The translations under genes and the position numbers were made by a program. From the NCBI GenBank assembly GCA_947628385.1, contig CANQZS010000001.1, positions 1-41,723 on the forward strand: a stretch of 41,723 bases of DNA, given 5' to 3'. The DNA is from an uncultured Clostridia bacterium (GTDB taxonomy: Bacteria; Bacillota; Clostridia; Oscillospirales; Ruminococcaceae). The notes beneath the pieces were generated by a model. It worked only from the letters and a program-made list of their open reading frames with translations, searched no databases and had not been told where the DNA came from. Below are positions 7,989-41,182 of this stretch, in pieces. Positions within the stretch are counted from its first letter, which is position 1, and each line of letters begins with the position of its first letter.

Positions 7989-9014
7989 CTATATCTTACC
8001 GTCTAAGCAGTATTTACACAACGTATAACCTTTGGTAATAGCTTTTTGCGGGTTAGTGAATGTCACCTGACTATTTCCTGCCGCATATCTGCAAGTCGGA
8101 GTGTGCAGCTTTTTTGTTTGTGGATTGCCTATGTATGTCTTTTTTACTTTTGGCGTTCCTGCCGGTCGGTATACGTGCTGATGTACGTTGTTTAGTAATA
8201 GCTTTGATAACACATAATCGGGATGCTGCGGTAATACGGTCAGCTTACCGCAAATAGGGCATTTAGCTGTAGAAAAAACCGCTCCTGCGACATATTCTTT
8301 TATTTGGTTGGGTGAGAACATCTTTTTGCAGTTATAGCAGCCGCACAGGTCGGATATAACGATGTCAGGCTGATTTTCACGGCTATGGCTCACAATTTTG
8401 TCCATTTGAATCAGCCTTTCTGCACGTTTGTTTCCCGTCTTAAACTTATCCCCTAAAGCTTTAACAGTATCGGTATATGATAGCTTTATATGTACCATAT
8501 ATACAGGCATATTGAGTTTTTCCTGAAGCTCGTCGGAAATCTCCTTAATATGCTGTGTTTTCAGCATGTATACGAATACCTTTACCCCATCCTTATACGG
8601 TTCTGCACCCTTCATCCGAATATCCGTTATATCCTGTAAATACTCCTCTATGGTATGCTTTATCTCTTTCCATCGCCGTTTTTTAGCCTTGTTATATCGT
8701 AATCTTTCTTTCTTGTTCTCGTAATGCTTCCAAAACGGTTTTTCGGGGAATTTTACGAGCATAAAGCAGTTCTTCCTAATACACTCATGCTTTTCCAAAA
8801 GCTCTTTTGTCAGTGCGCCTGTATGCTGTTCATACAGACACATCCCTATCACACCCTTCTTTCGTCTTGAACCGTCAATGCACTTGTACCATTTATCCTC
8901 AAACGGTAATTGTTCATCCGGCAACGGTTCATCATACGGTATATCGGCTGTATAATTGACTACAGCGTCTAAAAACGCTTTACGCAGCTTTTCTGTATCA
9001 TTCAACTCCCTCAC
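7989..9014 (-). CDS. Hypothetical zinc-binding protein with Ada-like metal-binding C-terminus
   Basis: CGCYNCKKMF...CPICGK zinc-ribbon and C-terminal 'YIGNPQTKKLHTPTCRYAAG...GYTLCKYCL'. Confidence 0.7.
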   Translation of the reverse strand: MRELNDTEKLRKAFLDAVVNYTADIPYDEPLPDEQLPFEDKWYKCIDGSRRKKGVIGMCLYEQHTGALTKELLEKHECIRKNCFMLVKFPEKPFWKHYENKKERLRYNKAKKRRWKEIKHTIEEYLQDITDIRMKGAEPYKDGVKVFVYMLKTQHIKEISDELQEKLNMPVYMVHIKLSYTDTVKALGDKFKTGNKRAERLIQMDKIVSHSRENQPDIVISDLCGCYNCKKMFSPNQIKEYVAGAVFSTAKCPICGKLTVLPQHPDYVLSKLLLNNVHQHVYRPAGTPKVKKTYIGNPQTKKLHTPTCRYAAGNSQVTFTNPQKAITKGYTLCKYCLDGKI

Positions 9015-11970
9015 CTTCTTCTGTTTCTTCCGTCTCTGTATCTTCGTTTGGTTCTTCGGGTTCCGGTGTTCCCGGTTTTGGTTCCGGTTCAGTATTAACT
9101 GTGCTGCTCGGCGTATATAGCTTACTGCTTTGTGCGTTCAGCCTCCGGTTATATGCTTCATACTCCGAATACCCTTTACAAGCCTCTACAGCGGCACTGG
9201 CGGCAAGATAAAGCTCTCTTGATGTATTATCATGCCCTGTATAATCTTCAAGCTTTTTCAGGGCGGTATTTGCCTTTTCCAGTAGCTCTTGTTTGGCTTT
9301 TGCCTCGCCTTCACGTTCTGCTTTCTCTTTTGCTGCTGCTTCGGCAGACTGCATTTCTGCCTTATGCGCCAGTTCTTTGTTCTGTTCCTCTATCTCCTTC
9401 TGCCGTGCCTGTTCCCGCGCTTCTTCAGCATGCTTTTCCCTTTGCTTTTGCAATTCACGCAGTTTCTCGTACGGAACACTACGCGCATCAAGCACGGACT
9501 TTTGATTGCTCAATCTGGTTAAATACCCGTTTTTAACATCGTTATCGGAAATAAGACCAATGAGCATATTTGCGTTCTGATAGGCTTCCTGTATCTTGTC
9601 AATGTCGTCAACGCTCTTACATGTCATATCCTCATAAGCTTTCAAGGCTGTCTCTGCTTCCTGCTGACGGTTTTTGTCCTGACTAAGCCACTCCTGCTCA
9701 TATATCCGCAGCTTTTCCGCCTCTCGGTCTTGTTCTTCCTTTTTGAGTTTATCTATAAGGATTTGCGAGAATAGGTCTGTATCACCCGTGTCAGCGTCCG
9801 TCATGTTACCGTTTGAATCAACGTTTCTTTCAATTACAGTAGCAGGACGTTCCCAGTCGAGTACGGGAAGGTCTTTATGTGTCTTGTCCATGAAGTCTTT
9901 CCAGATATTTATGGCGTACCTGCCCCTTGACAGATTAGGTATCTGACGCGGAGTGTCATATCCTACCCATACAGCCGTTGTATATTGCTTTGTATATCCG
10001 CAGTACCAACTATCCCGTTCATCGGACGTTGTGCCTGTTTTCGCGCCTGTGGGATGTCCTTCGACTTCAACGCCTGTACCGTCTGTTGTAACGGTTTTAA
10101 GCATATCGGTTAAGATATATGCCGTATCGGGTTCGTATACTTTGGCTTTCTGTATCTCGCCGTTAAATATAGTACCGCGTCCCTCATAATCAAGCCGTGT
10201 AATACAGATATTATCGGTATATATACCGCCGTTCTGAATGGTATAATACGCTTTCGCCATATCGCATACCCTTACGCCGTGCGTCATACCGCCCAAAGCG
10301 AGAGCGGATGTGTTATCGGTAGGAGTAAGTGTACCGAACCGCATAAGTGACATATATTCAAGGCTTGTTGAAGGTTTGATGTCGGATATAATCTGGAACG
10401 GAATGGTGTTGATTGACTTGGCAAGCGCATACCGTAATGTTACATCACCGCTGAAAGTGCGTGTTGAGTTTTGAGGACCGCCCTCTATATACGTGTCACG
10501 CATTACAAGGGACGGATAATATCTGCCGGTATCTATTGCCGGACCGTATACGGCTATAGGTTTTATGGCAGAACCCGGCTGACGTTCAGCTAAAAAGCCT
10601 CGGTTATATTCATCGTCCGTTCCTCTGCCGCCTACAATAGCCTTTACATACCCCGTGCTGTTGTCTATAACGACCGCAGCACCTTGCATGGCGTATTTGC
10701 CCGATACCGTGTCCGTTTCCGTAAATGATTTCAAGCCGTTATCCACGCTGTATTGTAAGCTGTTCTGCAGGTCGGTACTGAATGAGGTATATATCGTATA
10801 TCCACCGGCTCTTATTTCGTTTGAGTATGCCGTATATGTATTGGAATACCTATCCCTGTACGCCTGATATTCATTGTCGTCGTTAAAGGTGTATTGGAAG
10901 CCGAAATTATTAAGCTCCATGAGCTTCAACGTTGCGCAGTGTATGGCATAGCTCGTCTGATATGACTCTGTGCTTATTTCCGGCTGTTCAAGTACGAGAT
11001 TGACCGTTTCATTTGCGGCTTGCTGTCTTTCTTCTTCGGTTATATCCCCCGCGTTCAGCATTATATCGAGAACCTGATTGCGCCGTTCCGTAGCCTGTTC
11101 AAGATTGATTACGGGGTTGTATCTTGACGGGTTATTTGACATACCCACAAGCATAGCACACTCGGCAAGAGTAAGCCGACCGGGCGATTTGCCGAAATAA
11201 TACTTGGCAGCACCGCCTATACCGTAACATCCGTTACCGTAGTAATTGGAGTTGACATAAAACTCCATTATCTGTGACTTGCTGTATTTATCTTCAAGCT
11301 CCGGTGCGATAAAAAACTCGGTAAGCTTCCGGTTAAAGGTCTGTTCCTGCGTAAGCAGCATATTTTTTATGACCTGTTGTGTTATTGTAGAACCGCCCTG
11401 TGTAATATGCCCGAGGTTTTTGATATAGCTAAACCCCGCTCTTGCCAGTGCTGTATAGTCGATACCGTGATGTGACAAGAACCGTTTATCTTCAACGGCG
11501 ATATATCCCTGTTGTATATACTCCGGTACTTGGTCGATAGGTATATACTCATAGTTGCTTTTGTATATCTCTGCTATCTGCTCGTCATTTTCGTTGTATA
11601 TCCGTGTATTGTCAAGGAATTTGAAGGTGTTCTCATTTATGCTCGACAGCTTTTCATACGCTATCGCCTTTGCCTTTGATATATACGGACTGATGATACA
11701 TACACCGGCTATACCGCAGACGACAATAACGCCTATGACTGATAATATAACCGGTTTAAGAACCGATTTCTTTGGCTTATCTACCTTGTTGAGTGCTGTC
11801 TTGTACGCGCGTATTCTTTTGTCCAGTATATGAACCGATTGCCTGTCCATCGGCAGCGGATTATCGTTCTTCTTCTCGTTCCGTGCGAATATAACCATGA
11901 GTGACCGCTTCAGCGCGGCATATCTTTTATTAAGCTCGTCAATGAGCGTTTGTTTATTCTTCTTTCCCAT
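8998..11970 (-). CDS. Bifunctional class A penicillin-binding protein (GT51 + transpeptidase) with long charged C-terminal extension
   Basis: GT51 'VEDKRFLSHHGIDYTALARAGFSYIKNLGHITQGGSTITQQVIKNMLL'; transpeptidase 'RQPGSAIKPI' (SxxK), 'AKSINT' (SxN), 'TGAKTGTTSDERDSW' (KTG); N-terminal TM; coiled-coil and E/P-rich tail. Confidence 0.93.
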   Translation of the reverse strand: MGKKNKQTLIDELNKRYAALKRSLMVIFARNEKKNDNPLPMDRQSVHILDKRIRAYKTALNKVDKPKKSVLKPVILSVIGVIVVCGIAGVCIISPYISKAKAIAYEKLSSINENTFKFLDNTRIYNENDEQIAEIYKSNYEYIPIDQVPEYIQQGYIAVEDKRFLSHHGIDYTALARAGFSYIKNLGHITQGGSTITQQVIKNMLLTQEQTFNRKLTEFFIAPELEDKYSKSQIMEFYVNSNYYGNGCYGIGGAAKYYFGKSPGRLTLAECAMLVGMSNNPSRYNPVINLEQATERRNQVLDIMLNAGDITEEERQQAANETVNLVLEQPEISTESYQTSYAIHCATLKLMELNNFGFQYTFNDDNEYQAYRDRYSNTYTAYSNEIRAGGYTIYTSFSTDLQNSLQYSVDNGLKSFTETDTVSGKYAMQGAAVVIDNSTGYVKAIVGGRGTDDEYNRGFLAERQPGSAIKPIAVYGPAIDTGRYYPSLVMRDTYIEGGPQNSTRTFSGDVTLRYALAKSINTIPFQIISDIKPSTSLEYMSLMRFGTLTPTDNTSALALGGMTHGVRVCDMAKAYYTIQNGGIYTDNICITRLDYEGRGTIFNGEIQKAKVYEPDTAYILTDMLKTVTTDGTGVEVEGHPTGAKTGTTSDERDSWYCGYTKQYTTAVWVGYDTPRQIPNLSRGRYAINIWKDFMDKTHKDLPVLDWERPATVIERNVDSNGNMTDADTGDTDLFSQILIDKLKKEEQDREAEKLRIYEQEWLSQDKNRQQEAETALKAYEDMTCKSVDDIDKIQEAYQNANMLIGLISDNDVKNGYLTRLSNQKSVLDARSVPYEKLRELQKQREKHAEEAREQARQKEIEEQNKELAHKAEMQSAEAAAKEKAEREGEAKAKQELLEKANTALKKLEDYTGHDNTSRELYLAASAAVEACKGYSEYEAYNRRLNAQSSKLYTPSSTVNTEPEPKPGTPEPEEPNEDTETEETEEGEGVE

Positions 11971-15020: not shown

Positions 15021-17015
15021 CTATTCATCGGCGAATGTTATCTCGTTATTTGAAAGCGGTTCATCCGCCCAATACTCTGCGAAATCCGACATATCAAGCT
15101 CAATATCCGCGCCTTCCGGTATCTCCTTTTTTAAGGGCGGCGGTTCATCTTTTGGCTTGAACCTGCTCATAACCGCTGAAAAGATACCGTTTTGCTCTGA
15201 TGTATCATCATCGTCATCATTTTCAGGTCTGTTCCCGTACTCTTGCTGTTTCAGGTAGCTTTCTAGATACATTCTGTCCTGTTCCTCGTATCTCTTTCTG
15301 CCTTCCGTATCGGTTATGGACGGTCTTTCGGTTATAGGCACGTCACGGAACTTGTTAGCTTCGGGATGCTGTGAGAAGTCATACTTGTACGCTTCCATGA
15401 CGTTCTTGCCACGGAATATTATAAGCGACCTGTCCAATGGGAAACGAAGTATCTCGTCAGGCGTATATATCTTGCGTTTACCGTCACCGCTGCTGTGTTT
15501 ATGACCTATACTGATTAAAGGTTCTATCTTTTCATGCTGTACCGTTCCTACCTTGACCGTTGTCTCTCCGGCACGGTCAGAGATGAATTTTGCTGTTATG
15601 GGGTCATTGCAGCCTAAAAGCAAGTGCGTGTCACAGTTACTTAGGATGGTTTGCCATTTGCCGTTAGGATACCGTTCTTCAAGCTGTGTTATGTTCTGGA
15701 ATATAACCGATATGTTAATGTCACGGCTTCTTACCGTTGCTATTTTCTTTTCAAAATCCGCGATTGTTCCTATATTCGGAAACTCATCAAGAAGATAGTT
15801 TATCGGTACAGGGCATTTGTTCCCGTGCGTATCAGCATAGTCTACTTGGTCTATAAACGCGAACGAGAAGAATAGCGTAGATAGGAAGTTTAACGCCGAA
15901 TGTTGGTCGGACATTATACAGAAATACGCACAAGGCTTTTTAGCCGGAAGCGTCAGGTCAATATCGTCCTTTGCGGTAATTCTCTTGATAATATCGGCTT
16001 GGAACACCTGTAATCTGTTCGACAAGCCGGTTATAATATTGCCGCGCATGTTATCGGAACCTTGCTTAAATGTCATGTACGGACCGACACATAATTGCTC
16101 ATCTTGTGCTAAACTCATGCTGTCAAACATGGTATCAAGATATTTTTCGCCGAGCGGATTTTGAATAAGGTCATACGCGTCGCCTATAGACTGCTTGCCT
16201 AATGTTTTATAGTCATGTCCGCGTTCTACTCGAAGCATAAGAGCCTTTAACAGTGACATGGCGGCATTATCCCATACGTCGCCTTTACCCGTTCCTGTGT
16301 TCTGGATAACAACAGACGCGAATATCTGTGCGCGTATCTCGTCGCCGCGTAATTCTTTAAGACAGTCCCAACCATCGGATTTATCGGGATGAACTAAGTC
16401 AAAAACACGTACAATATATCCGTTATCTTTCAAATATTGAGCCGTTGATTCGTAAAGCTCGCCTTTCGGATCGGTAACAATTACAGACTCACGGCGTTTA
16501 ACTGTTTGTATAATGAAAGGGCGAGCATAACCTCGTGATTTACCGCTTCCGCTGCATCCAAATACGGCTACGTGCTTATTCATTCGGCTTTTCATGTCTG
16601 TGTTTATAAGCTTCTTACCGCTTTTGTCCAACTGCCCCAATATTGTTCCTTCCGCTTTCTGAGGGGTATTGATTTTTGCATATCCGTCTATATCCGAAGA
16701 ATCCAGTTTACCCGCCGTTCCATATACACCTGAGTCGGAATACTTGAAATTGCGCTCGTCAAAAGTAAACAGGTCAAAATTATTTTTCTTTGCAACCAAT
16801 ACAATACCGCCTATCATTAACAGGAAGATAATTACAGCCATACTGAAGGAGAACCCTGTTTGCGGCATATCACGTATTAGTGTAATGGGGTTAAATGACA
16901 TTGATTTCCCTGCCAATACATGCCTGAATATCATAGCAAGGTATATGGATATAACGAACATAATACCTAACGCTTTTAATATGGTCTTTTTCTTCTTTTT
17001 CAATAATTCAAGCAT
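15021..17015 (-). CDS. virD4: VirD4/TraG-type type IV coupling protein
   Basis: N-terminal TM helices, Walker A 'GCSGSGKSRGYARPFI', 'VTDPKGELYESTAQYLKDNGYIVRVFDL', Walker B 'YLLDEFPNIGTI'. Confidence 0.92.
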   Translation of the reverse strand: MLELLKKKKKTILKALGIMFVISIYLAMIFRHVLAGKSMSFNPITLIRDMPQTGFSFSMAVIIFLLMIGGIVLVAKKNNFDLFTFDERNFKYSDSGVYGTAGKLDSSDIDGYAKINTPQKAEGTILGQLDKSGKKLINTDMKSRMNKHVAVFGCSGSGKSRGYARPFIIQTVKRRESVIVTDPKGELYESTAQYLKDNGYIVRVFDLVHPDKSDGWDCLKELRGDEIRAQIFASVVIQNTGTGKGDVWDNAAMSLLKALMLRVERGHDYKTLGKQSIGDAYDLIQNPLGEKYLDTMFDSMSLAQDEQLCVGPYMTFKQGSDNMRGNIITGLSNRLQVFQADIIKRITAKDDIDLTLPAKKPCAYFCIMSDQHSALNFLSTLFFSFAFIDQVDYADTHGNKCPVPINYLLDEFPNIGTIADFEKKIATVRSRDINISVIFQNITQLEERYPNGKWQTILSNCDTHLLLGCNDPITAKFISDRAGETTVKVGTVQHEKIEPLISIGHKHSSGDGKRKIYTPDEILRFPLDRSLIIFRGKNVMEAYKYDFSQHPEANKFRDVPITERPSITDTEGRKRYEEQDRMYLESYLKQQEYGNRPENDDDDDTSEQNGIFSAVMSRFKPKDEPPPLKKEIPEGADIELDMSDFAEYWADEPLSNNEITFADE

Positions 17016-30034: not shown

Positions 30035-30262
30035 ATGAAAACAGAAGAAAAGAAGATACAGGGTATAACGCGCATAGTCGATGAAGTTATTGCCACGCTT
30101 GTGTTTGTGGCGGTCGGACTATGGATAATGACGATGTGGTTGTGTATGAACACGACCTTTAACGTTATAAGCTTCATTATAGCGTTTTTGTCCGTGACAC
30201 TCTCAATTATAACAGAGGTTGTATGGGACAGAAAATTAAAAAATTGCGGATATAAGGAATGA
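30035..30262 (+). CDS. Small membrane protein
   Basis: MKTEEKKIQGITRIVDEVIATLVFVAVGLWIM... two TM segments; RBS AAAGGAGAGGG. Confidence 0.6.
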   Translation: MKTEEKKIQGITRIVDEVIATLVFVAVGLWIMTMWLCMNTTFNVISFIIAFLSVTLSIITEVVWDRKLKNCGYKE

Positions 30263-30273
30263 GGGGAAAGACA

Positions 30274-31101
30274 ATGAACAAGACAAAGATTGAGTGGTGT
30301 GATGCAACATGGAACCCTGTTACCGGCTGCCGGCATGGGTGCGATTATTGTTATGCTCGCAAACTGGCAAAGCGGTTTTCATACGACGGTCAGGAGCGCG
30401 ATGCTTCAATGGAATTGCAGAGCAAATGGTTACACGACTCGGCAGCGTTGAAGTCGGGAGTGGGAAATACAGTCTTGGAATATCCGGTCAACCTTACAGA
30501 TGGACGTGTTGTACCTTATCCGTTTGACTTTGCGCCGACGTTCCATCGTTACCGTCTTAATGAACTGGCACACATGGCAAAGCCGAGGAACATATTCGTT
30601 TGCAGTATGGCAGACCTTTTCGGCTCTTGGGTGTCTGAGGAATGGATAAAAGCAGTGTTTGAGGCTTGCAAGCAAGCTCCACAGCATCGTTATCTGTTCC
30701 TGACGAAAAACTCAAACAGATACATTGACCTCGACAATAAGCGTATCTTGCCGTGGTCGGAGAATTTTTGGTTTGGTACGACGGTAACTCGCCCGACCGA
30801 CGAGTTTACATGGTTTGAGGGTAGGAAATATCATTGGTTTTTATCCATAGAGCCTATGCTCGAACGGTTTGGACCTATATCGGGAATGGAACATCTGCCG
30901 GAATGGATAATCATCGGCGCAGAGACAGGCAACAGAAAAGACAAGGTTGTTCCCAAGAAGGAGTGGGTAGACGACATTGTAGACTTCTGCGACAGATACA
31001 ATATCCCGTTATTTATGAAGGACAGCCTTGTGCCGATAATGGGCGAGGAAAACATGCGCAGAGAGTTTCCATGGGAAAAGGCAGGTGATAGTAATGAATG
31101 A
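30274..31101 (+). CDS. DUF5131 (phage Gp37/Gp68-like) protein, Cys-rich radical-SAM-like motif
   Basis: MNKTKIEWCDATWNPVTGCRHGCDYCYARKLAKRF ... FLTKNSNRYIDL ... WFLSIEPMLERFGPISGMEHLPEWIIIGAETGNRKDKVVPKKEWV. Confidence 0.9.
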   Translation: MNKTKIEWCDATWNPVTGCRHGCDYCYARKLAKRFSYDGQERDASMELQSKWLHDSAALKSGVGNTVLEYPVNLTDGRVVPYPFDFAPTFHRYRLNELAHMAKPRNIFVCSMADLFGSWVSEEWIKAVFEACKQAPQHRYLFLTKNSNRYIDLDNKRILPWSENFWFGTTVTRPTDEFTWFEGRKYHWFLSIEPMLERFGPISGMEHLPEWIIIGAETGNRKDKVVPKKEWVDDIVDFCDRYNIPLFMKDSLVPIMGEENMRREFPWEKAGDSNE

Positions 31102-31555
31102 TATAGCTGCAATAACTGTTATAATCATTATTCTCGTTTTAGCGATAATAGCCTGCTGTGTCATAAAAGAGTTTACCTCTGTGGGGAAGAAGCTAAAAGT
31201 AGAACGTATATTGAAAGTTATAGGGACTGTGTGTTGTATAGGAATAATAGCAGCATTGATAACAGTGGTAACTATAACCGATAGAAATATGAAAGAACAA
31301 AACAAAGATAAAATGATTGTAACTGTAACACCCACAGTGCAAACAGAACAGATAACTTCCTATGATGAGATATACATATATGGCTACAAACCTGACGGAA
31401 CGCTCTATGAGGGCAGCGGCGAAAAGAAGTATGACGTATACAGTACGGGGAGTTTTAATAATACTTGCATAAAAGTCAGATGTACTGTTGAAGACGCAAA
31501 TAATCTTTTGGAAATGGCGCGGGAATGTAATATTGAGATAAAAAAGGCTGAATAA
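31094..31555 (+). CDS. Membrane protein with 'IYGYKxDGTLYEGSGE' domain (paralog 1)
   Basis: Two N-terminal TM segments then VTPTVQTEQITSYDEIYIYGYKPDGTLYEGSGEKKYDVY...IKVRCTVEDANNLLEMARECNIEIKKAE. Confidence 0.75.
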   Translation: MNDIAAITVIIIILVLAIIACCVIKEFTSVGKKLKVERILKVIGTVCCIGIIAALITVVTITDRNMKEQNKDKMIVTVTPTVQTEQITSYDEIYIYGYKPDGTLYEGSGEKKYDVYSTGSFNNTCIKVRCTVEDANNLLEMARECNIEIKKAE

Positions 31556-31579
31556 GTAAAACAGAAAGGATTGATTAAA

Positions 31580-32041
31580 ATGCAAAGTGAGGCAATTATA
31601 ACTGCCATAAATGCGCTTGCCGAGAAGGTTGGCATAGCAGTTGACTGGACATCATCGAATATAGTTCCTTGTGTACAGGAAATCGCAAATAAGTACGTCG
31701 CGATGAAGATAACGTCCTCGTATGTATGGTTGGGTATAGGAATTATTTGTATAATAGCCGCACTTGTCTTTTTGCTTATAGCGAATAGACAAAGCAAAAG
31801 TTTCGACAATTATTCTCAACAATGTCGTCAAGCGAAAAAAGAAAACGCTGACGATGAAGATTTGAAAATGTTATGCAAAAAACGTGACAATGCGAAAGAA
31901 CTTGCATATTGGTATTATTTTGTAGCCACTTTATTTGGTATCGGCGGAGTTGTGATAATAATACCAACAATATTTACTTTGGTAAAATATTATATGGCTC
32001 CCGAAATACAGGTAATTGAATATATACAGTATTTGATGTAA
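31580..32041 (+). CDS. Membrane protein, hypothetical
   Basis: Two TM segments: YVWLGIGIICIIAALVFLLIA and YYFVATLFGIGGVVIIIPTIFTLV; RBS AGAAAGG. Confidence 0.65.
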   Translation: MQSEAIITAINALAEKVGIAVDWTSSNIVPCVQEIANKYVAMKITSSYVWLGIGIICIIAALVFLLIANRQSKSFDNYSQQCRQAKKENADDEDLKMLCKKRDNAKELAYWYYFVATLFGIGGVVIIIPTIFTLVKYYMAPEIQVIEYIQYLM

Positions 32042-32073
32042 TTCATCAAATTCTTGAAAGGAGAAAATGAAAA

Positions 32074-33180
32074 ATGCGGTTTAAGGTTTCAAAAAATCAG
32101 TTCCGTAACGCCGTAAAGATGGCTATAAAGGCAGTAACACATACGCCGCAATTACTGATTCTGTCAGGGTTGCACATAGAGGCATTCGCAGACGGCAGAG
32201 TAAGCGTGACCGGCAACGGTGTATCGGTGATAGCAAAGGCATGGATAGATAACGTCGATGTCAAAGAGCCGGGTTCAGCCATTGTAAACGCTCAAATGCT
32301 GAACAGAATGGTACAGACAATATCCGAAGATTTAATTGAGATATTCACCGATGATGATAACAAAAGCACCGTTATAAAGTATGGTCGGAGCCGATTAAAG
32401 CTTAATACTATAGAGGGTGTCTTCCCTACATATATGGACTTCAACCCCGACTATAGTATTGAAATGGACGGCTCTGTATTGGCGGATATGTTCAATAAGG
32501 TTGTCGCCTTCGCTTCAGACGAAAATACACATCTTGCCTCCTGTGCAGGTGTCAGCTTTAAGGTTGATGGCGGAGTGGTGGAGCTTGCCGGAACAGATAC
32601 ACGCCGGCTTGCCTGTGTAAAACAGGTGATAGATGATACAGAGGAAACATTCTCGGTTGTACTGCCGACGAACGGAATTAAGCTTTTTCTCGGCAATAAA
32701 GACGAGGAATGGTTCACTATCGAAACGGATTTACGGACTATCCGGTTCAGGTCAAAGACTTGTCAAATATATATGAGCCTTTTGGACGGAACGTTTATGA
32801 GCTATGATAAAGTGCTGAATGTAAGTCCGAGAATAACGGCGACTATGGATAAGGGTGAGCTTACCAACGCCGTAAGCAGAGCGATGCTGATGTCAGGTAT
32901 GGCTTTTGGACCGGACAAACCTCCCGTTGTAATGGATGTGTATAATCACAAGGTTTTGATTATGTGCAGAGCGTCCAACGGTACATATAGTGAAGAACTG
33001 TCGGCAGATATTGACGGCGAGGATATAAAGATAGGCTTTAACTGTATATATCTGTATGACGTTATAAGCCGATGTGACAATGACACCGTTACACTTGAAC
33101 TCACCGAACCGCTTAAAGCCGCGCTTGTTCATGATAACGGTGCAACATATCTTACAATGCCGATGCGGTTATTGACATAA
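32074..33180 (+). CDS. dnaN: DnaN-like DNA polymerase III beta sliding clamp
   Basis: Clamp-like three-domain length (368 aa), 'LAGTDTRRLACVKQ', C-terminal 'TYLTMPMRLLT' (canonical clamp MPMRL ending). Confidence 0.85.
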   Translation: MRFKVSKNQFRNAVKMAIKAVTHTPQLLILSGLHIEAFADGRVSVTGNGVSVIAKAWIDNVDVKEPGSAIVNAQMLNRMVQTISEDLIEIFTDDDNKSTVIKYGRSRLKLNTIEGVFPTYMDFNPDYSIEMDGSVLADMFNKVVAFASDENTHLASCAGVSFKVDGGVVELAGTDTRRLACVKQVIDDTEETFSVVLPTNGIKLFLGNKDEEWFTIETDLRTIRFRSKTCQIYMSLLDGTFMSYDKVLNVSPRITATMDKGELTNAVSRAMLMSGMAFGPDKPPVVMDVYNHKVLIMCRASNGTYSEELSADIDGEDIKIGFNCIYLYDVISRCDNDTVTLELTEPLKAALVHDNGATYLTMPMRLLT

Positions 33181-33195
33181 ACGAGGTATAAACCA

Positions 33196-34032
33196 ATGGA
33201 TAAGGAAAAGGCAGCGATTGAAAGGTTGCAAATAGGCGCAGAAGCCGCCGAAACCTACTATAACGCACCGCTGATTGTCTGTTACAGCGGCGGTAAGGAC
33301 AGTGACGTACTGCTTCAGCTTGCACTTAACAGCGGTATCAGGTTTGAGGTACTTCACACGCATACGACCGCTGACGCACCGGAAACAGTCTATCATGTTA
33401 CCGAAACATTCCGCAGACTGGAAGAACACGGTATCAAATGCGCAAGAGAATATCCGACGTATAAAGGTAATCCTACCTCGATGTGGCAGTTAATACCACA
33501 AAAGAAATTGCCGCCTACAAGACTTATGCGATACTGCTGTGATGTATTGAAGGAACAGGGCGGTAAAAATCGTGCCATTGCCACAGGTGTACGGTGGAAT
33601 GAAAGCTCGGCAAGGTCTAAGCGCGGTATCTATGAAGATGCTGCTCATAAACCCGAGAACAGAATAGTCATCAACAATGACAACGACGAAAAACGCAGAT
33701 GGTTTGAACGGTGCGAGATACAGGCTAAGACGGTTATAAACCCCATAATCGACTGGACGGATGCCGAGGTTTGGGACTATATTGCAGACAATAAAATACC
33801 GTGCAATCCGTTATACTGTGAGGGGTTCAAACGTGTCGGTTGTATCGGATGCCCGTTGGCAAACAAGCATAACAGGCAGATAGAGTTCCAAAGATACCCG
33901 AAATACAGACAGATGTATATACACGCGTTCGATAGGATGCTAAAGGTACGTGAAACAGAAGGAAAAGACAATCGTACATGGAACGACGGGTATGACGTGT
34001 TCAGGTGGTGGATGGGCGAAGATAAAGGATAA
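33196..34032 (+). CDS. PAPS reductase/PP-loop family protein
   Basis: PP-loop 'LIVCYSGGKDSDVLLQLAL'; 'AIATGVRWNESSAR'; 'CNPLYCEGFKRVGCIGCPLANK'. Confidence 0.88.
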   Translation: MDKEKAAIERLQIGAEAAETYYNAPLIVCYSGGKDSDVLLQLALNSGIRFEVLHTHTTADAPETVYHVTETFRRLEEHGIKCAREYPTYKGNPTSMWQLIPQKKLPPTRLMRYCCDVLKEQGGKNRAIATGVRWNESSARSKRGIYEDAAHKPENRIVINNDNDEKRRWFERCEIQAKTVINPIIDWTDAEVWDYIADNKIPCNPLYCEGFKRVGCIGCPLANKHNRQIEFQRYPKYRQMYIHAFDRMLKVRETEGKDNRTWNDGYDVFRWWMGEDKG

Positions 34033-34046
34033 GGGGGATTTTACAA

Positions 34047-34637
34047 ATGAAGAAGGTAATGGCTGTTATATCAGGGTTAATGATTATGTTATCAGCGACA
34101 GCAAACGCCGCAGAGTTTGAAACATGGTATGCCGGCGCGGAGTCGGGGTTAAATTTGCGCTCCGAGCCGAACGCTGACAGTGCTGTTATAACGGTATACC
34201 CGCATGGCACGGAATTATCCGTTATTGGTACAGACGGCGGTAAATGGTGGCAAGTATGGGACGGAATAAATCAAGGTTGGGTTAGCAGTGAATACATGGT
34301 AGACAGTGCGGATAAGTACGCAGAGCCGCAGCCGCAAATAGGTGAATATTTGGGTGTGTTCCGTGTAACAGGCTATACGCCCGACCCGGCAGAAAACGGC
34401 GGTGGTACAGTTGACTGTTTCGGTGTTCCGCTCGAATTGGAAATCGGTGACATTGTGGCGGTAGACGCAAGCGTTATACCCTTAAATACATGGCTATACA
34501 TAGAGGGTGTAGGCTACAGGAAAACTCACGACACAGGAGTTTACGGAAGGGTTATAGACGTATTAACCGCAAGTAATTATGAGTCGGACATGATAACTGC
34601 TGACCGTAACGTGTATATCGTTGAGGGGGTGGAATAA
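34047..34637 (+). CDS. Secreted SH3b + 3D-domain protein
   Basis: Signal peptide; SH3b 'GLNLRSEPNADSAVITVYPHGTELSVIG...WWQVWDGINQGWVSSEYM'; 3D domain 'FRVTGYTPDPAENGGGTVDCFGVPLELEIGDIVAVDASVIPLNTWLYIEGVG...DTGVYGRVIDVL'. Confidence 0.85.
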   Translation: MKKVMAVISGLMIMLSATANAAEFETWYAGAESGLNLRSEPNADSAVITVYPHGTELSVIGTDGGKWWQVWDGINQGWVSSEYMVDSADKYAEPQPQIGEYLGVFRVTGYTPDPAENGGGTVDCFGVPLELEIGDIVAVDASVIPLNTWLYIEGVGYRKTHDTGVYGRVIDVLTASNYESDMITADRNVYIVEGVE

Positions 34638-34816
34638 TGAGCAGCGAAGTAGAATTTTTTTGTCGAGTCCCGACGTATGGTAAAACCAAAATATACATTT
34701 CAAACAGTAATGACAAAGGCTGTTTGTTAATCGGAGTAGGTGGGAAACAGTACAGAGTACCGGCTAAAAATTTATTGTGGTCGGTAAAGAAATGTATGGG
34801 TATAGAGGACGAATAG
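34637..34816 (+). CDS. Small hypothetical protein (59 aa)
   Basis: ATG overlaps upstream stop (TAATG); MSSEVEFFCRVPTYGKTKIYISNSNDKGCLLIGVGGKQYRVPAKNLLWSVKKCMGIEDE; below the ORF-track length cutoff. Confidence 0.5.
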   Translation: MSSEVEFFCRVPTYGKTKIYISNSNDKGCLLIGVGGKQYRVPAKNLLWSVKKCMGIEDE

Positions 34817-34829
34817 AGGGGTGATAGAG

Positions 34830-35069
34830 ATGTATTTGACATCAAAACTGGTGATGTATGTTATATACATGATAATCGCTGTTATAACGGTTTCTGCACT
34901 GGCTCGGTCATGGTTCACGCGAACCCAAAGAACCGGAGGAAGGAAGACACAAAGGTCTGCTATGATAAGCTATATCGTTATCTTTACTGTCAGTGCATTG
35001 CTTATGACTTGGTATAACTTTGCATGGCTGATTGTAGAACTTTTGGAACAGATAAGTAAAATAGGATAG
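34830..35069 (+). CDS. Small membrane protein
   Basis: MYLTSKLVMYVIYMIIAVITVSALA... two TM segments; RBS GAGGGGTGATAGAG. Confidence 0.55.
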   Translation: MYLTSKLVMYVIYMIIAVITVSALARSWFTRTQRTGGRKTQRSAMISYIVIFTVSALLMTWYNFAWLIVELLEQISKIG

Positions 35070-35096
35070 CATATATATCAAAGGGAGTAATTGGCG

Positions 35097-35582
35097 ATGT
35101 GGCGTAAGGAAATAACGAAAAAGCTGTCGGAGCTGTTGGAAAGGCATCTCAACCCGAGCAACGATAGCCGCATATATACGGCAAAAGAGGTTACATTCGA
35201 CTATTCATCGGTCGATAGAGTCAGAGTTGACTATATGCAATTCAAGCCGCCGAATACAACGATAAGCGGTTTAGAACGGGGCGATTTCTTCTGTTACGAA
35301 GTTAAATCATCGGCAGAGGACTTTCACTCAAAGCACGGTCATAACTTTATCGGTGACTATAACTACTACGTTATGCCAGAAGCTGTATACCTCGCTGTAA
35401 AGAAAGAAATCCCGTTTGGAACAGGTGTATATGTCGCGGATAATGCTTTTACTCATTTGGAATGCGTACAAGCCGCGAGAAGGAAGAACCGAAATCGCTC
35501 AAACCTCGAACTGCTGTTCATGATGTACCGTTCAGCATTAAGAGATTTATATAAATTCAAAGGAAGTGATAAACGTGACTGA
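35097..35582 (+). CDS. MmcB-like PD-(D/E)XK nuclease family protein
   Basis: 'DRVRVDYMQFKPPN...GDFFCYEVKSSAEDF' (D...ExK core), 'YYVMPEAVYLAVKKEIPFGTGVYVAD'. Confidence 0.65.
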   Translation: MWRKEITKKLSELLERHLNPSNDSRIYTAKEVTFDYSSVDRVRVDYMQFKPPNTTISGLERGDFFCYEVKSSAEDFHSKHGHNFIGDYNYYVMPEAVYLAVKKEIPFGTGVYVADNAFTHLECVQAARRKNRNRSNLELLFMMYRSALRDLYKFKGSDKRD

Positions 35583-35970
35583 AGTAGAGAAGCTGAAAGT
35601 CATTGACAAGTTTATGCAAGGGTATTTACCGATACAGGACGATATTATCACACTGTTAAAGACAATGCCCGACAGTGATTTGGCAAGAGAGAGGATAATT
35701 TCAAAGCTGAACCCTATTGCTACACCGTTGTTTGAGATGTACGAAAAGCCGCTGAACGACATTGTAAGCGTGTATACGGACGAATCAGTACCGTTTCTGA
35801 TAATGATACTCGAAAAGATTATCAAGGAGCTTAAAAGAACGTCAAATTATTCGCCTTTAATGCTTGACTTTCTTGAAAAGAACACTGAAATGACGGCGTA
35901 TATGTGGTCTGTACCGTATTTGGAAGTTGCAAAGGCAGATACAGAAGAACAACAGGGCGATAACCGGTAA
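35575..35970 (+). CDS. Hypothetical protein
   Basis: Overlaps preceding stop; RBS AAAGGAAGTGATAAAC before GTG. Confidence 0.6.
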   Translation: MTEVEKLKVIDKFMQGYLPIQDDIITLLKTMPDSDLARERIISKLNPIATPLFEMYEKPLNDIVSVYTDESVPFLIMILEKIIKELKRTSNYSPLMLDFLEKNTEMTAYMWSVPYLEVAKADTEEQQGDNR

Positions 35971-35982
35971 GGAGTGTGACTT

Positions 35983-37614
35983 ATGAACAGAGCGCAGATA
36001 AACTTGACGGATGAAATCACTGTTGACGGCTTCTGCGGCGGCGGTGGATGGTCTACGGGGTTTGAACTGGCGATAGGCAGACCGGTTGATATAGGTATTA
36101 ACCATGACGCGGATGCCATTGCCATGCACAAACGCAACCATCCGTATACCAAGCACTATAACGAAAACATCTACGAAGTTGACCCGTACGAAGCGGTGTC
36201 AGGACGAAATGTGGGTTGGGCGCATTTTTCACCGGATTGCACACACTTCTCTCGTGCAAAGGGTGGTACGCCGGTTAAAAAGTCTATCCGTAGCTTGGCA
36301 TGGGTAGTTACAAAATGGGCGGGAACCGTTCATCCACGGATAATCTCTATGGAGAACGTACCGGAGTTCATGACTTGGGGACCGCTCTGTGCAAGACGAA
36401 CCAAAGACGGGCGCATATACAAGGTTGACGGCACTATTGCTGAAAAGGGCGAGTATGTACCGTATGCCGAGCAGCAGCTCGTACCGGATAAACGTAAAAC
36501 CGGTCAGACGTTTAAGCGGTTTATATCCGTTATGAAATCGTATGGTTATGACTGCAAGTGGAAGATACTGACCGCCGCCGATTACGGTGCGCCTACTATA
36601 CGAAAACGGTTATTTATCCTGTTCCGTAACGATGGACAGCCTATACGTTTCCCGATACCTACACACGGTGACCCGAACAGTAAAGCTGTTAAAACCGGTA
36701 AACTAAAGCCGTGGCATACGGCGGCAGAATGTATTGACTGGTCTGTCCCCTGCCCTTCTATCTTTGAGAGAAAGAAGCCTTTGGCAGAGAATACGCTGAA
36801 ACGTATCGCAAAGGGCATACAGAAATTTGTTGTCGATAACCCCGACCCGTTCCTTTTGGAAACGGACGATTCCGGTATCGTTGCCCCGACTATAATGTGC
36901 AATAACACAAATAACGTCGGCGCGGATATAGATACGCCTTTGCCGACTATCACTACGGGCAACAGGAATTATCTTGTATCGCCCATGCTAATTCAGTATC
37001 ACGGCGAACAATCGGAACGTGAAACACGCGGGCAAGTCCTTAACCAGCCTCTGCAAACGGTCGATACGGCGAATAGGTATGGTTTGGTTACGGCGTTCAT
37101 TTCAAAGTATTTCAGCGGTGGATATGCCGGCTCCGGTGCTTCGATGAAAAAGCCTATGCCGACCGTAACAGCGATAGACCATAATTCTGTCGTGTCCGTA
37201 CATATTTCACCTGAGGCAGAAAAAAGTGACAAGCACTGTGCGGACGTACAGGCGTTCTTGATTAAGTATAATCACACAGGTACAGCGAAAAACGTCGATA
37301 AGCCGTTAGATACGATAACAACCAAAGACCGATTTGGGATTGTAACGGTAAAGAGCGAGGAATACAGGATAGTCGATATAGGTATGAGGATGCTCACGCC
37401 GAGGGAGCTATATAACGCGCAGGGATTTCCGGCAGATTATGAGATAGAGACGGATTGTGACGGCAAGGCATACCCGAAGACAAAGCAGATAGCACGATGC
37501 GGTAACAGTGTTCCTCCCCCGTTTGCAACAGCGATAGTACGGGCAAACGCGCCGGAATGGTGTGGGGTTAAGATAGAAACAATGCAGGAATTGAACCGTA
37601 TGATAGCGGTATAA
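35983..37614 (+). CDS. DNA (cytosine-5) methyltransferase
   Basis: Motif I 'VDGFCGGGGWSTGFELA'; motif IV 'HFSPDCTHFSRAKGGTP'; motif VI 'SMENVPEF'; motif X 'QIARCGNSVPPPFATAIVRAN'. Confidence 0.92.
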   Translation: MNRAQINLTDEITVDGFCGGGGWSTGFELAIGRPVDIGINHDADAIAMHKRNHPYTKHYNENIYEVDPYEAVSGRNVGWAHFSPDCTHFSRAKGGTPVKKSIRSLAWVVTKWAGTVHPRIISMENVPEFMTWGPLCARRTKDGRIYKVDGTIAEKGEYVPYAEQQLVPDKRKTGQTFKRFISVMKSYGYDCKWKILTAADYGAPTIRKRLFILFRNDGQPIRFPIPTHGDPNSKAVKTGKLKPWHTAAECIDWSVPCPSIFERKKPLAENTLKRIAKGIQKFVVDNPDPFLLETDDSGIVAPTIMCNNTNNVGADIDTPLPTITTGNRNYLVSPMLIQYHGEQSERETRGQVLNQPLQTVDTANRYGLVTAFISKYFSGGYAGSGASMKKPMPTVTAIDHNSVVSVHISPEAEKSDKHCADVQAFLIKYNHTGTAKNVDKPLDTITTKDRFGIVTVKSEEYRIVDIGMRMLTPRELYNAQGFPADYEIETDCDGKAYPKTKQIARCGNSVPPPFATAIVRANAPEWCGVKIETMQELNRMIAV

Positions 37615-37632
37615 AAAAAGGAGTGATAAAAA

Positions 37633-38070
37633 ATGATGTATCAGATATTAGCTTGGACATTGTCTATATGTGTTTTAATAATTTTTATAACCGTTATGTT
37701 AAATGGAAGGGATATAATAAATCCAACACTGGCTACTACAATAGTAGTAACAGCAAGTGTTATAATGTTGGGAACTTTTGGAGTTGTTGTATGGAAAGAT
37801 TTTCAAGTAACTAAACTTGAAGACTATGAGACAGTTGTAATTATAAAGCCGACTGTGACTACTCAACCATTATATACAGGCGACGAAGTATATATCTATG
37901 GATATAAAGAAGACGGCTCGTTATATGAAGGCAGCGGTGAAACAGAATATACGGTATATGATACAGAAGATAATGATACGTATGTGAAAATAAAATGTAT
38001 CACAGACGACGCCAAAGATTTGATGAAGATGAGCCGTGAGTGCGATATTGAAATAAAGAAGGTGGAATAA
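37633..38070 (+). CDS. Membrane protein with 'IYGYKEDGSLYEGSGE' domain (paralog 2)
   Basis: PTVTTQPLYTGDEVYIYGYKEDGSLYEGSGETEYTVYDTEDNDTYVKIKCITDDAKDLMKMSRECDIEIKKVE. Confidence 0.75.
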   Translation: MMYQILAWTLSICVLIIFITVMLNGRDIINPTLATTIVVTASVIMLGTFGVVVWKDFQVTKLEDYETVVIIKPTVTTQPLYTGDEVYIYGYKEDGSLYEGSGETEYTVYDTEDNDTYVKIKCITDDAKDLMKMSRECDIEIKKVE

Positions 38071-38071
38071 A

Positions 38072-38542
38072 ATGGTAGAATTAGGAACAATAGATTCCAT
38101 AGTAGGGATTTTAATTGCAATTACAGTGTTTGTATTTGGAGTTATGACTTTTCTAATGTTATCTGGCAGAATAAACCCTGTAACAGTATTGGTAACAGCG
38201 ATAATATTAGGAATTATTGTTACACTGTCTTTTGTAATGCAAAAAGTATTACATAATGAATATACATCTTCTCAAACAAGTGACAATGAAATAGTAATGT
38301 CAGTAACGCCAACGATGACATCTTTGCCGTTGGAAAAGGGAGATACCGTAAAAATATATGGGTACACCGAAGACGGTACAATCTTTAAGGACAATATTGA
38401 TAAGGAATATACAATATATTCTGTGGAAGATAGGTATTCTATATCTCCGGTAAACGTGCGCTGTACTACATCTGATGCTAAAGAATTAAGAGAAATTCTT
38501 TCAAAGAGTAAAGATATTGAGGTTGTAAAGGTATCACCGTAA
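38072..38542 (+). CDS. Membrane protein with related domain (paralog 3)
   Basis: PTMTSLPLEKGDTVKIYGYTEDGTIFKDNIDKEYTIYSVEDRYSISPVNVRCTTSDAKELREILSKSKDIEVVKVS. Confidence 0.72.
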   Translation: MVELGTIDSIVGILIAITVFVFGVMTFLMLSGRINPVTVLVTAIILGIIVTLSFVMQKVLHNEYTSSQTSDNEIVMSVTPTMTSLPLEKGDTVKIYGYTEDGTIFKDNIDKEYTIYSVEDRYSISPVNVRCTTSDAKELREILSKSKDIEVVKVSP

Positions 38543-38572
38543 TAAACATAAAGAAAGGTTGGACATTGGAAA

Positions 38573-39214
38573 ATGAGCATATTACTGATATTACTCTTTA
38601 TTGTATCATTAACTGTTTTTATAGAAGGAGTCCAGATAATAAGATTGACTTCTGACTGTCTCCTTTCAATACCGGCTGTTATAATACCGTCAGACTTAAA
38701 GCAAGGAGATACAATAAATATATACGGGTTACAAAAGGATGGCACTTCTGATACTCCCCATATAAATAAGCTATATGCCGGATATGTCGTATATAAAGTG
38801 GGAAACGGTTGTGTGACTATTTGTTGTAATAGGGTTGAGAGCAAGAGTATATCAAAGTTTATACATGAATATCCGTACATTGAAATAACAAAGGCATACG
38901 GGCATTTGTTAAATGATGATTTCCTCGTAAATGTCTCATATCCTATGACGGCATCCTTACCTATCAAAATAGGCGATTGTATATACTTATTTGGGTATAA
39001 GGAAGACGGTTCTGTATATGAAGGCAGTGGGAGAAAATACATAGTACAACATGTAGATGATGAATGTATGCCTATGCAGATAAGCATACGTTGTGCGTTT
39101 TCGGATGCGAAAAGACTATCGAAAATGATACGTGAATGTGAAGATGTTAAGGTAGTACGAGTTGAACGGGAATATGCCCAACAGAGGTACAAAAGAGAAA
39201 AAAAGTTATTGTGA
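38573..39214 (+). CDS. Membrane protein with two copies of the domain (paralog 4)
   Basis: LKQGDTINIYGLQKDGT...VTICCNRVESKSISKF and LPIKIGDCIYLFGYKEDGSVYEGSGRKYIVQHV...ISIRCAFSDAKRLSKMIRECEDVKVVRVE. Confidence 0.72.
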   Translation: MSILLILLFIVSLTVFIEGVQIIRLTSDCLLSIPAVIIPSDLKQGDTINIYGLQKDGTSDTPHINKLYAGYVVYKVGNGCVTICCNRVESKSISKFIHEYPYIEITKAYGHLLNDDFLVNVSYPMTASLPIKIGDCIYLFGYKEDGSVYEGSGRKYIVQHVDDECMPMQISIRCAFSDAKRLSKMIRECEDVKVVRVEREYAQQRYKREKKLL

Positions 39215-39236
39215 TATAAAAAGGGGTGTAAAAGAA

Positions 39237-39860
39237 ATGCAGTTATTCGACGCGGAAATCACAGAAATTCGCAGTAAGAAAATAACGATACCTGCGGAAT
39301 CACGAGAAGATGCGGGTAGTATTGCTCATGATATGTACCTAAACTCACAGATTGAACTGTCAAAAGGGGATTTTAACAGTTATGGGGTTTCAATATCGCC
39401 CAGAAATATAACCTTGTCTAAAATTGTCAACGGATATATAAGGTTCAATAATAATTCGGATGAATGGGTAAATTGTTCTGTAAACCTTGAAACAAAAGAG
39501 GTTTTCGGCTTTAATGCACCTGACAAGCTGAACGGATATACATTCACATTATGGCTATATGACGCTTTCTTTGACGTATGGGGCGAGGATATGGTAGAAT
39601 CCGGAGATTTTTGGACAAAGCTTAATGTTATCGAAAAGAAAAAGGAAACAAAGAAAGCAGAGCAAAGTAATAACGACAGTCCATCTCACGGTCATTGGTG
39701 TATAACAAGACCGGGATATTATGACTGTTCCGTATGCGGCAAATATTATAAAAACGGCTGCGTGACCTTAAAAGAAGCGGCAAAAAACCTTCAATCTCGT
39801 AAATACATATATTCATATTGCCCGTTTTGCGGCTCTGTAATGGACGAGGACGTGATATAA
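39237..39860 (+). CDS. DpnD/PcfM-like N-terminus with C-terminal zinc ribbon
   Basis: MQLFDAEITEIRSKKITIPAESREDAGSIAHDMYLNSQIELSKGDF (DpnD-PcfM-like); CSVCGKYY...YCPFCGSVMDE. Confidence 0.65.
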   Translation: MQLFDAEITEIRSKKITIPAESREDAGSIAHDMYLNSQIELSKGDFNSYGVSISPRNITLSKIVNGYIRFNNNSDEWVNCSVNLETKEVFGFNAPDKLNGYTFTLWLYDAFFDVWGEDMVESGDFWTKLNVIEKKKETKKAEQSNNDSPSHGHWCITRPGYYDCSVCGKYYKNGCVTLKEAAKNLQSRKYIYSYCPFCGSVMDEDVI

Positions 39861-40258: not shown

Positions 40259-41182
40259 ATGGGAATAGTTTTAATACTGCTTGTTGTCTTGTTGGCTGTC
40301 ATAGTTATAGCGAACATTAAGATTGTCCCGCAAGCGCATACGTACATAATCGAGAGGTTTGGCGGCTATTACGCCACATGGAACGTAGGACTGCATATAA
40401 AGGTTCCGTTCATTGACCGGATAGCAAAGAAGGTAAACATGAAAGAGCATGTAGCGGACTTTCCGCCGCAGCCTGTTATCACAAAGGATAACGTAACGAT
40501 GCAGATAGATACGGTCATATATTATCAGATAACAGACCCGAAACTGTTTGCATACGGTGTTGAACGCCCGATGATGGCTATAGAGAACCTCACAGCTACA
40601 ACGCTCCGTAATATAATCGGCGACTTGGAGCTTGACGAAACACTTACCTCGCGTGATATGGTAAACACGAAAATGCGCTCGATACTCGACGAGGCTACCG
40701 ACCCGTGGGGCATAAAGATAAACCGTGTTGAGCTTAAAAACATAATGCCTCCTGCCGAGATACAGGATGCGATGGAACGTCAGATGAAAGCCGAGCGCGA
40801 AAGACGTGAGAGCATTTTAAGAGCCGAGGGCGAGAAAAAGAGTGCAATACTCCGCGCTGAAGGTGAAAAGGAAAGCGCAATACTTCGCGCCGAGGCAAAG
40901 AAACAGACGGCGATAAAAGAGGCTGAAGGACAGGCAGAGGCTATTATCGCAGTACAGACCGCAATAGCGGACGGTATCAGGAAAATCGACGAAGCAAAGC
41001 CGAGTAAGGAATATCTTACGCTTAAATCGCTCGAAAGCTTTGAAAAGGCGGCGGACGGTAAGGCTACAAAGATAATCATTCCGTCTGAAATACAGGGCAT
41101 TGCCGGTCTGACATCTTCAATCACCGAGATTGCCCGGGGCGATACGAATAAACCGACGTCGGGGAAAAAGAAAGAAGGTTAA
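40259..41182 (+). CDS. SPFH/stomatin-prohibitin family protein (QmcA-like)
   Basis: TM + 'IVPQAHTYIIERFGGYYATWNVGLHIKVPFID...QIDTVIYYQITDPKLFAYGVE', C-terminal repeats ILRAEGEKKSAILRAEGEKESAILRAEAKKQ. Confidence 0.92.
   Translation: MGIVLILLVVLLAVIVIANIKIVPQAHTYIIERFGGYYATWNVGLHIKVPFIDRIAKKVNMKEHVADFPPQPVITKDNVTMQIDTVIYYQITDPKLFAYGVERPMMAIENLTATTLRNIIGDLELDETLTSRDMVNTKMRSILDEATDPWGIKINRVELKNIMPPAEIQDAMERQMKAERERRESILRAEGEKKSAILRAEGEKESAILRAEAKKQTAIKEAEGQAEAIIAVQTAIADGIRKIDEAKPSKEYLTLKSLESFEKAADGKATKIIIPSEIQGIAGLTSSITEIARGDTNKPTSGKKKEG

Follow-up and report, generated by a model that had tools for sequence, protein, structure and literature searches.

The 41,723-nucleotide stretch of Clostridia DNA analyzed here (the window) encodes several small membrane proteins that share one domain of about 85 residues, which raises the question of what this domain is and what its several copies do for the DNA that carries them. 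A preliminary description had placed five domain copies in four ORFs, with three of the genes in tandem and the fourth roughly 6 kb upstream of them, and one of the proteins had been described as internally duplicated. All of these features were confirmed, and the similarity among the copies was far above chance by both HMM and codon-shuffle comparisons. The family genes, their domain copies (each a profile match), and the neighboring genes that bear on the argument are as follows.

15021-17015, minus strand: VirD4-type coupling protein
31094-31555, plus strand: gene A, 153 aa; predicted transmembrane (TM) hairpin and putative RcpC-D2-like domain
31301-31552, plus strand: domain copy in A
35983-37614, plus strand: C5 cytosine DNA methyltransferase
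37633-38070, plus strand: gene B, 145 aa; predicted TM hairpin and domain
37819-38067, plus strand: domain copy in B
38072-38542, plus strand: gene C, 156 aa; predicted TM hairpin and domain; modeled with AlphaFold2
38279-38536, plus strand: domain copy in C
38573-39214, plus strand: gene D, 213 aa; one predicted TM helix, two domain copies, and a basic tail
38648-38899, plus strand: domain copy D1 (first in gene D), the most divergent copy
38912-39166, plus strand: domain copy D2 (second in gene D)
39189-39860, plus strand: DpnD/PcfM-like protein, the start of which overlaps the end of gene D
40259-41182, plus strand: Band 7/SPFH protein

The ORF starts of A, B, and C are plausible as read from the sequence. 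Gene B begins 18 nt past the end of the methyltransferase gene and is preceded by AAAGGAG, gene C begins two bases past the stop codon of B, and the ATG of A (31094) overlaps the upstream stop, with a GTG at 31085 as the alternative start. The five copies in the window align over about 85 columns, and each matches the family HMM with an E-value between 1e-30 and 1e-39 (the model was built from the same sequences). The DNA alignment of the A and B domains gave a z-score of 16.5 over codon shuffles, and copy D1 is very divergent (25%–26% identity). A profile search of the whole 1.9-Mb assembly recovered these five copies and one more (C1:94343-94744, minus strand), which lies outside the window on the same 110,440-bp contig (C1), about 55 kb away, bringing the family on this contig to five genes and six domains. 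Two TM helices are predicted in each of A, B, and C, and one in each of D and the sixth copy.

The presence of a VirD4-type coupling protein indicates that the contig carries conjugation genes, which also include TrbC/T4SS pilins and a CHAP hydrolase. An actin-like protein and a DnaN clamp are encoded as well, and topoisomerase and NrdD genes were read by eye only. A class A penicillin-binding protein with transglycosylase and transpeptidase domains (8998-11970) is encoded near the conjugation genes. No integrase, relaxase, or VirB4 was identified on the element. The contig ends with a sodium-dependent transporter gene, and one end of the contig carrying a related element (described below) has yajC (read by eye); these contig ends make an integrated element (ICE) likely, and the family members are probably small membrane proteins of such a conjugative element. 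They are not encoded beside the T4SS genes, which lie at least 8 kb away on the opposite strand, but in a DNA-modification and replication block (DnaN/methyltransferase/PAPS-reductase). A DUF5131/Gp37 gene (30259-31101) and the PAPS-reductase (BrxP/DndC-like) gene (33196-34032) share this block with the methyltransferase gene, and the three possibly form a DNA-modification cluster. A second and larger paralogous family of six proteins is encoded on the contig outside the window (C1:87275-87853, 90876-91157, 95292-95876, 95895-96755, 104080-104406, and 104355-105503). Most of its members have a KOW/SH3-looking N terminus (F.VGDRVRVR.W.DM...CG.TGTV). As several further gene pairs on the element are also duplicated, expansion of paralogs appears to be a general habit of this element.

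Among 84,980 species genomes, the sole relative was found in a rabbit-gut Clostridia metagenome-assembled genome (contig CANPXG010000005.1). The element on that contig is colinear with the window contig, has matches for 68 of 96 ORFs (most at 34%–97% identity), and carries three family copies (La, Lb, and Lc) in the same gene block. The C domain is about 69%–74% identical to two of these copies and 57% identical to the third, and five residues are invariant in all nine known copies (D22, G28, D32, Y44, and C62, numbered by the first row of the alignment). The cytosine methyltransferase gene is immediately followed by a family copy in each element, and further copies are located a short distance upstream of the zinc-ribbon and Band 7 genes (the Band 7 proteins are 89% identical). 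The elements differ in copy number, positions, and subtype, and the rabbit-gut copy that follows the methyltransferase gene has a domain closest to that of C, not B; this mismatch of position and subtype points to gene conversion or to recurrent duplication and loss. Backbone proteins of the two elements are typically 34%–75% identical, and the cytosine methyltransferases are 89% and the NrdD-like proteins (C1:48296-50458) 96% identical, which suggests either recent exchange or strong constraint. A small TM protein (31571-32041; phrog_23747 match, E 1e-17) is conserved in both elements at 63% identity; it is preceded by gene A in the window and followed by a family copy in the rabbit-gut element.

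No further member was found elsewhere. A tblastn search with B and C found no copy in 72,556 plasmids or 50,697 phages, and scans of IMG/VR with the domain alignment, a C-type alignment, and protein B found no relatives. Searches of 200 relatives and then of genomes from the order (394), class (391), and phylum (399), overlapping sets that together sample about 1,200 other Bacillota genomes from genus to phylum, gave true members in the window's own genome only. The nearest relatives of the VirD4-type protein, a member of the VirD4-like CD1115 family, are 41%–43% identical to it and belong to Vescimonas fastidiosa pMM35_02 and Subdoligranulum plasmids; the domain was not found in these plasmid records. 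A search with the backbone AAA ATPase gave distant relatives only, and hence no family-free element for comparison. Within the data searched, the family occurs only in the two related elements, and its absence from the plasmids, phages, viral contigs, and sampled genomes makes it look element specific.

Is the domain a divergent form of something known? Pfam, NCBIfam, PHROGs, and PADLOC gave no named family for it, as the preliminary description had judged from the sequence. The RcpC model PF16976 did not match A–D at E-values up to 10 or the rabbit-gut copies at E-values up to 0.05, a sequence search of the PDB with the family profile gave a chance match only, and a structure search of a viral structure library gave nothing at E below 0.01. 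An AlphaFold2 model of C built from nine sequences had pLDDT values mostly between 75 and 92 in the domain, with the predicted order β-β-β-β-α-β. When this model was compared with the PDB by Foldseek, RcpC (9gzr_A) ranked first by probability (0.99) and second by E-value (0.038), and it was again the most probable match (0.96) for an independent single-sequence model. This check, also proposed with the preliminary description, therefore gave a mixed answer: RcpC had the highest probability with both models, but its E-values were 0.04–0.12 and all E-values exceeded 0.01. Other β-barrels (SETX and FAD-binding barrels) scored nearly as high.

Sequence comparisons pointed the same way. An hhalign comparison with seven RcpC rows was equivocal, its score being reached by 3 of 200 shuffles, and so we carried out a larger comparison with the domains of 35 RcpC proteins, which were chosen by PF16976 independently of the family's own matches. 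The score was 20.6; column shuffles gave 9.9 ± 1.8 and in no case (0/100) reached it, although the hhalign probability was below 10% (9%). The SAF half of the same 35 proteins scored 12.8, which was reached by 6 of 100 shuffles and is not significant. Global profile alignment to RcpC was colinear over 87 columns, in the order pre-motif strand, LxxGDxVxIYGY, YxVYxV, VxIRC, helix, and last strand. Scored with the family HMM, the 35 RcpC proteins exceeded their own shuffles (p = 3e-11) and reversals (p = 4e-7), p values that are optimistic because the proteins are related. The 391 class genomes gave nine weak foreign matches, of which two were SAF+RcpC (CpaB) proteins, one of them above the Pfam RcpC cutoff. 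The signal is most pronounced near the GDxV motif and weak in the α-helical half alone, so the likeness may be convergent; the LxxGDxV motif, which is part of the signal, also occurs in unrelated proteins such as alanine racemase. Each of these four lines of evidence (Foldseek, profile alignment, HMM scores, and genome matches) is weak alone. Taken together, the models and alignments make it likely that the domain has an RcpC-D2-like fold. The preliminary description had noted a loose resemblance to SAF/RcpC (CpaB) domains; the RcpC D2 part of that resemblance gained support and the SAF part did not. With the SAF domain (PF08666), the family has in common a loose GDxV strand motif.

Instead, the domain could be a generic SH3-like or other small β-barrel binder unrelated to RcpC, and the family would then hold some ligand, cytoplasmic or extracellular, at the membrane. 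Consistent with this are the other β-barrels among the Foldseek matches and weak matches of Pfam SH3_2 (PF07653) to C, D, and La (E 0.025–0.05). The SH3_2 scores of 13.8–14.7 bits fall below the cutoff of 21.8, however, and cover only the GDxV...DG stretch, whereas RcpC was the most probable match with both models and its profile alignment is colinear beyond the GDxV motif. We consider such a binder unlikely.

If the fold is RcpC-D2-like, how do these proteins relate to RcpC/CpaB (PF16976; PDB 9gzr; PMC12307814)? They resemble it in the predicted strand-helix order and profile of D2, in the membrane anchor, and in the probably extracytoplasmic location of the domain. In contrast to RcpC/CpaB, they lack SAF/D1, their short copies lack the C-terminal β-hairpin, and they have two TM helices rather than one. 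They also fall below all curated score cutoffs and occur in three to six copies per element, and the element has no tad locus. The stretch between the TM helix and the domain is only about 10 residues long, with no SAF match, and the contig encodes no T2SSE ATPase and no tad gene. Without a SAF domain or a tad gene on the contig, the family proteins are not CpaB, and the identification of A–D as ordinary CpaB proteins was rejected on these grounds together with their subthreshold scores and different number of TM helices. Likeness to a single domain of CpaB is not enough for membership.

The Tad pilus is encircled by a C12 ring of RcpC, in which the well-conserved D2 domains pack with the helix of one against a strand of the next, and D1 dimerizes (PMC12307814). 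Free D2-like domains might enter or obstruct the CpaB ring in a host or recipient cell and shut off its Tad pilus, with pilus-dependent phages, adhesion, or competing DNA traffic as example targets. A D2 without SAF is the architecture expected of a dominant-negative fragment, the rabbit-gut element's genome encodes CpaE, CpaF, TadB, and TadC, and CpaB occurs in 4 of 20 genomes of the same genus and 64 of 291 of the class. Against this, the window's own genome (a 74%-complete assembly) has no CpaB or CpaF, only PilB-, PilT-, and SpoIIIAA-like matches, and the domains have diverged far from CpaB, although a co-assembling inhibitor would be expected to keep its interface. Interference with Tad pili thus seems improbable.

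Selection on the two parts of the proteins differs sharply, in quantitative agreement with the earlier observation that divergent N-terminal TM regions accompany a conserved core. The domains have dN values of 0.18–0.44, and the hairpins 0.7–1.06. C and La, its closest relative, share 80% identity in domain DNA (z = 30) but no similarity in hairpin DNA (z = 0.4). Even in this pair, and in most others, hairpin protein and DNA could not be distinguished from residue and codon shuffles. Neutral drift simulated at the C/La dS erased hairpin similarity in at most 2% of cases, or up to 7% with a higher dS and four indels. The hairpins are thus either swapped or evolving at least as fast as neutral sequence, and the contrast with the constrained domain indicates that the domain is the functional unit. 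A domain tree was poorly resolved, with only the A+B grouping fairly well supported (90/89).

This pattern bears on a role in entry or surface exclusion, in which the proteins would block redundant transfer of the same element. They are small, membrane anchored, present in several copies, and confined to one type of conjugative element. The preliminary description had read the expansion as a sign of diversifying function, but the comparison of copies that it called for gave dN/dS values of 0.17–0.34 where dS was usable. The domain is under purifying selection, the opposite of what is expected for a diversifying surface antigen. The genes also lie apart from the T4SS genes, on the other strand and in a different block, and exclusion genes are not usually found in several copies on one element. 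A domain under purifying selection, attached to hairpins with no detectable relationship, speaks for a conserved docking or oligomerizing module rather than for diversifying exclusion proteins, and we regard exclusion as quite unlikely. A membrane-bound defense or sensor effector, with a signal-sensing domain and membrane-perturbing hairpins, is very unlikely: two TM helices and a small domain are a common layout among such effectors, the methyltransferase and DndC/BrxP-like genes are neighbors, and the La hairpin weakly matches SLATT_5 (E 0.027), but no PADLOC model matches A–D, the hairpins have no conserved residues, unlike effectors with a functional pore, and no cognate sensor enzyme was noticed nearby.

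We favor an envelope scaffold or collar over these four alternatives, as a possible rather than an established role. Proteins that consist of D2 alone, with interchangeable anchors, a constant domain, and several copies per element, fit an oligomerizing or docking module. Each protein would display one RcpC-D2-like domain (two in D), most likely at the outside of the cytoplasmic membrane, as suggested by the charge distribution in A, C, Lb, and Lc, where the inter-helix loop is more positive than the other side; the charge bias is opposite in La and absent in B, and in the sixth copy basic residues follow the lone TM helix. The hairpin would serve only as an interchangeable anchor. The stand-alone copies might act as RcpC D2 does, oligomerizing with one another as homo- or heteromers, and the oligomer could form a collar, scaffold, or docking platform that serves the element in the envelope of its monoderm host. 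The outside location, the oligomerization, and a part in transfer or envelope remodeling are conceivable, though somewhat doubtful; the explanation as a whole, that small membrane proteins of a conjugative element use D2-like domains as an envelope scaffold, is offered tentatively.

If this explanation is correct, the family would be a stand-alone example, on a mobile element, of the D2 module at work outside the Tad pilus, and its small soluble domains would make it possible to ask if D2 can oligomerize by itself. The family also flags an unnamed type of conjugative element in gut Clostridia.
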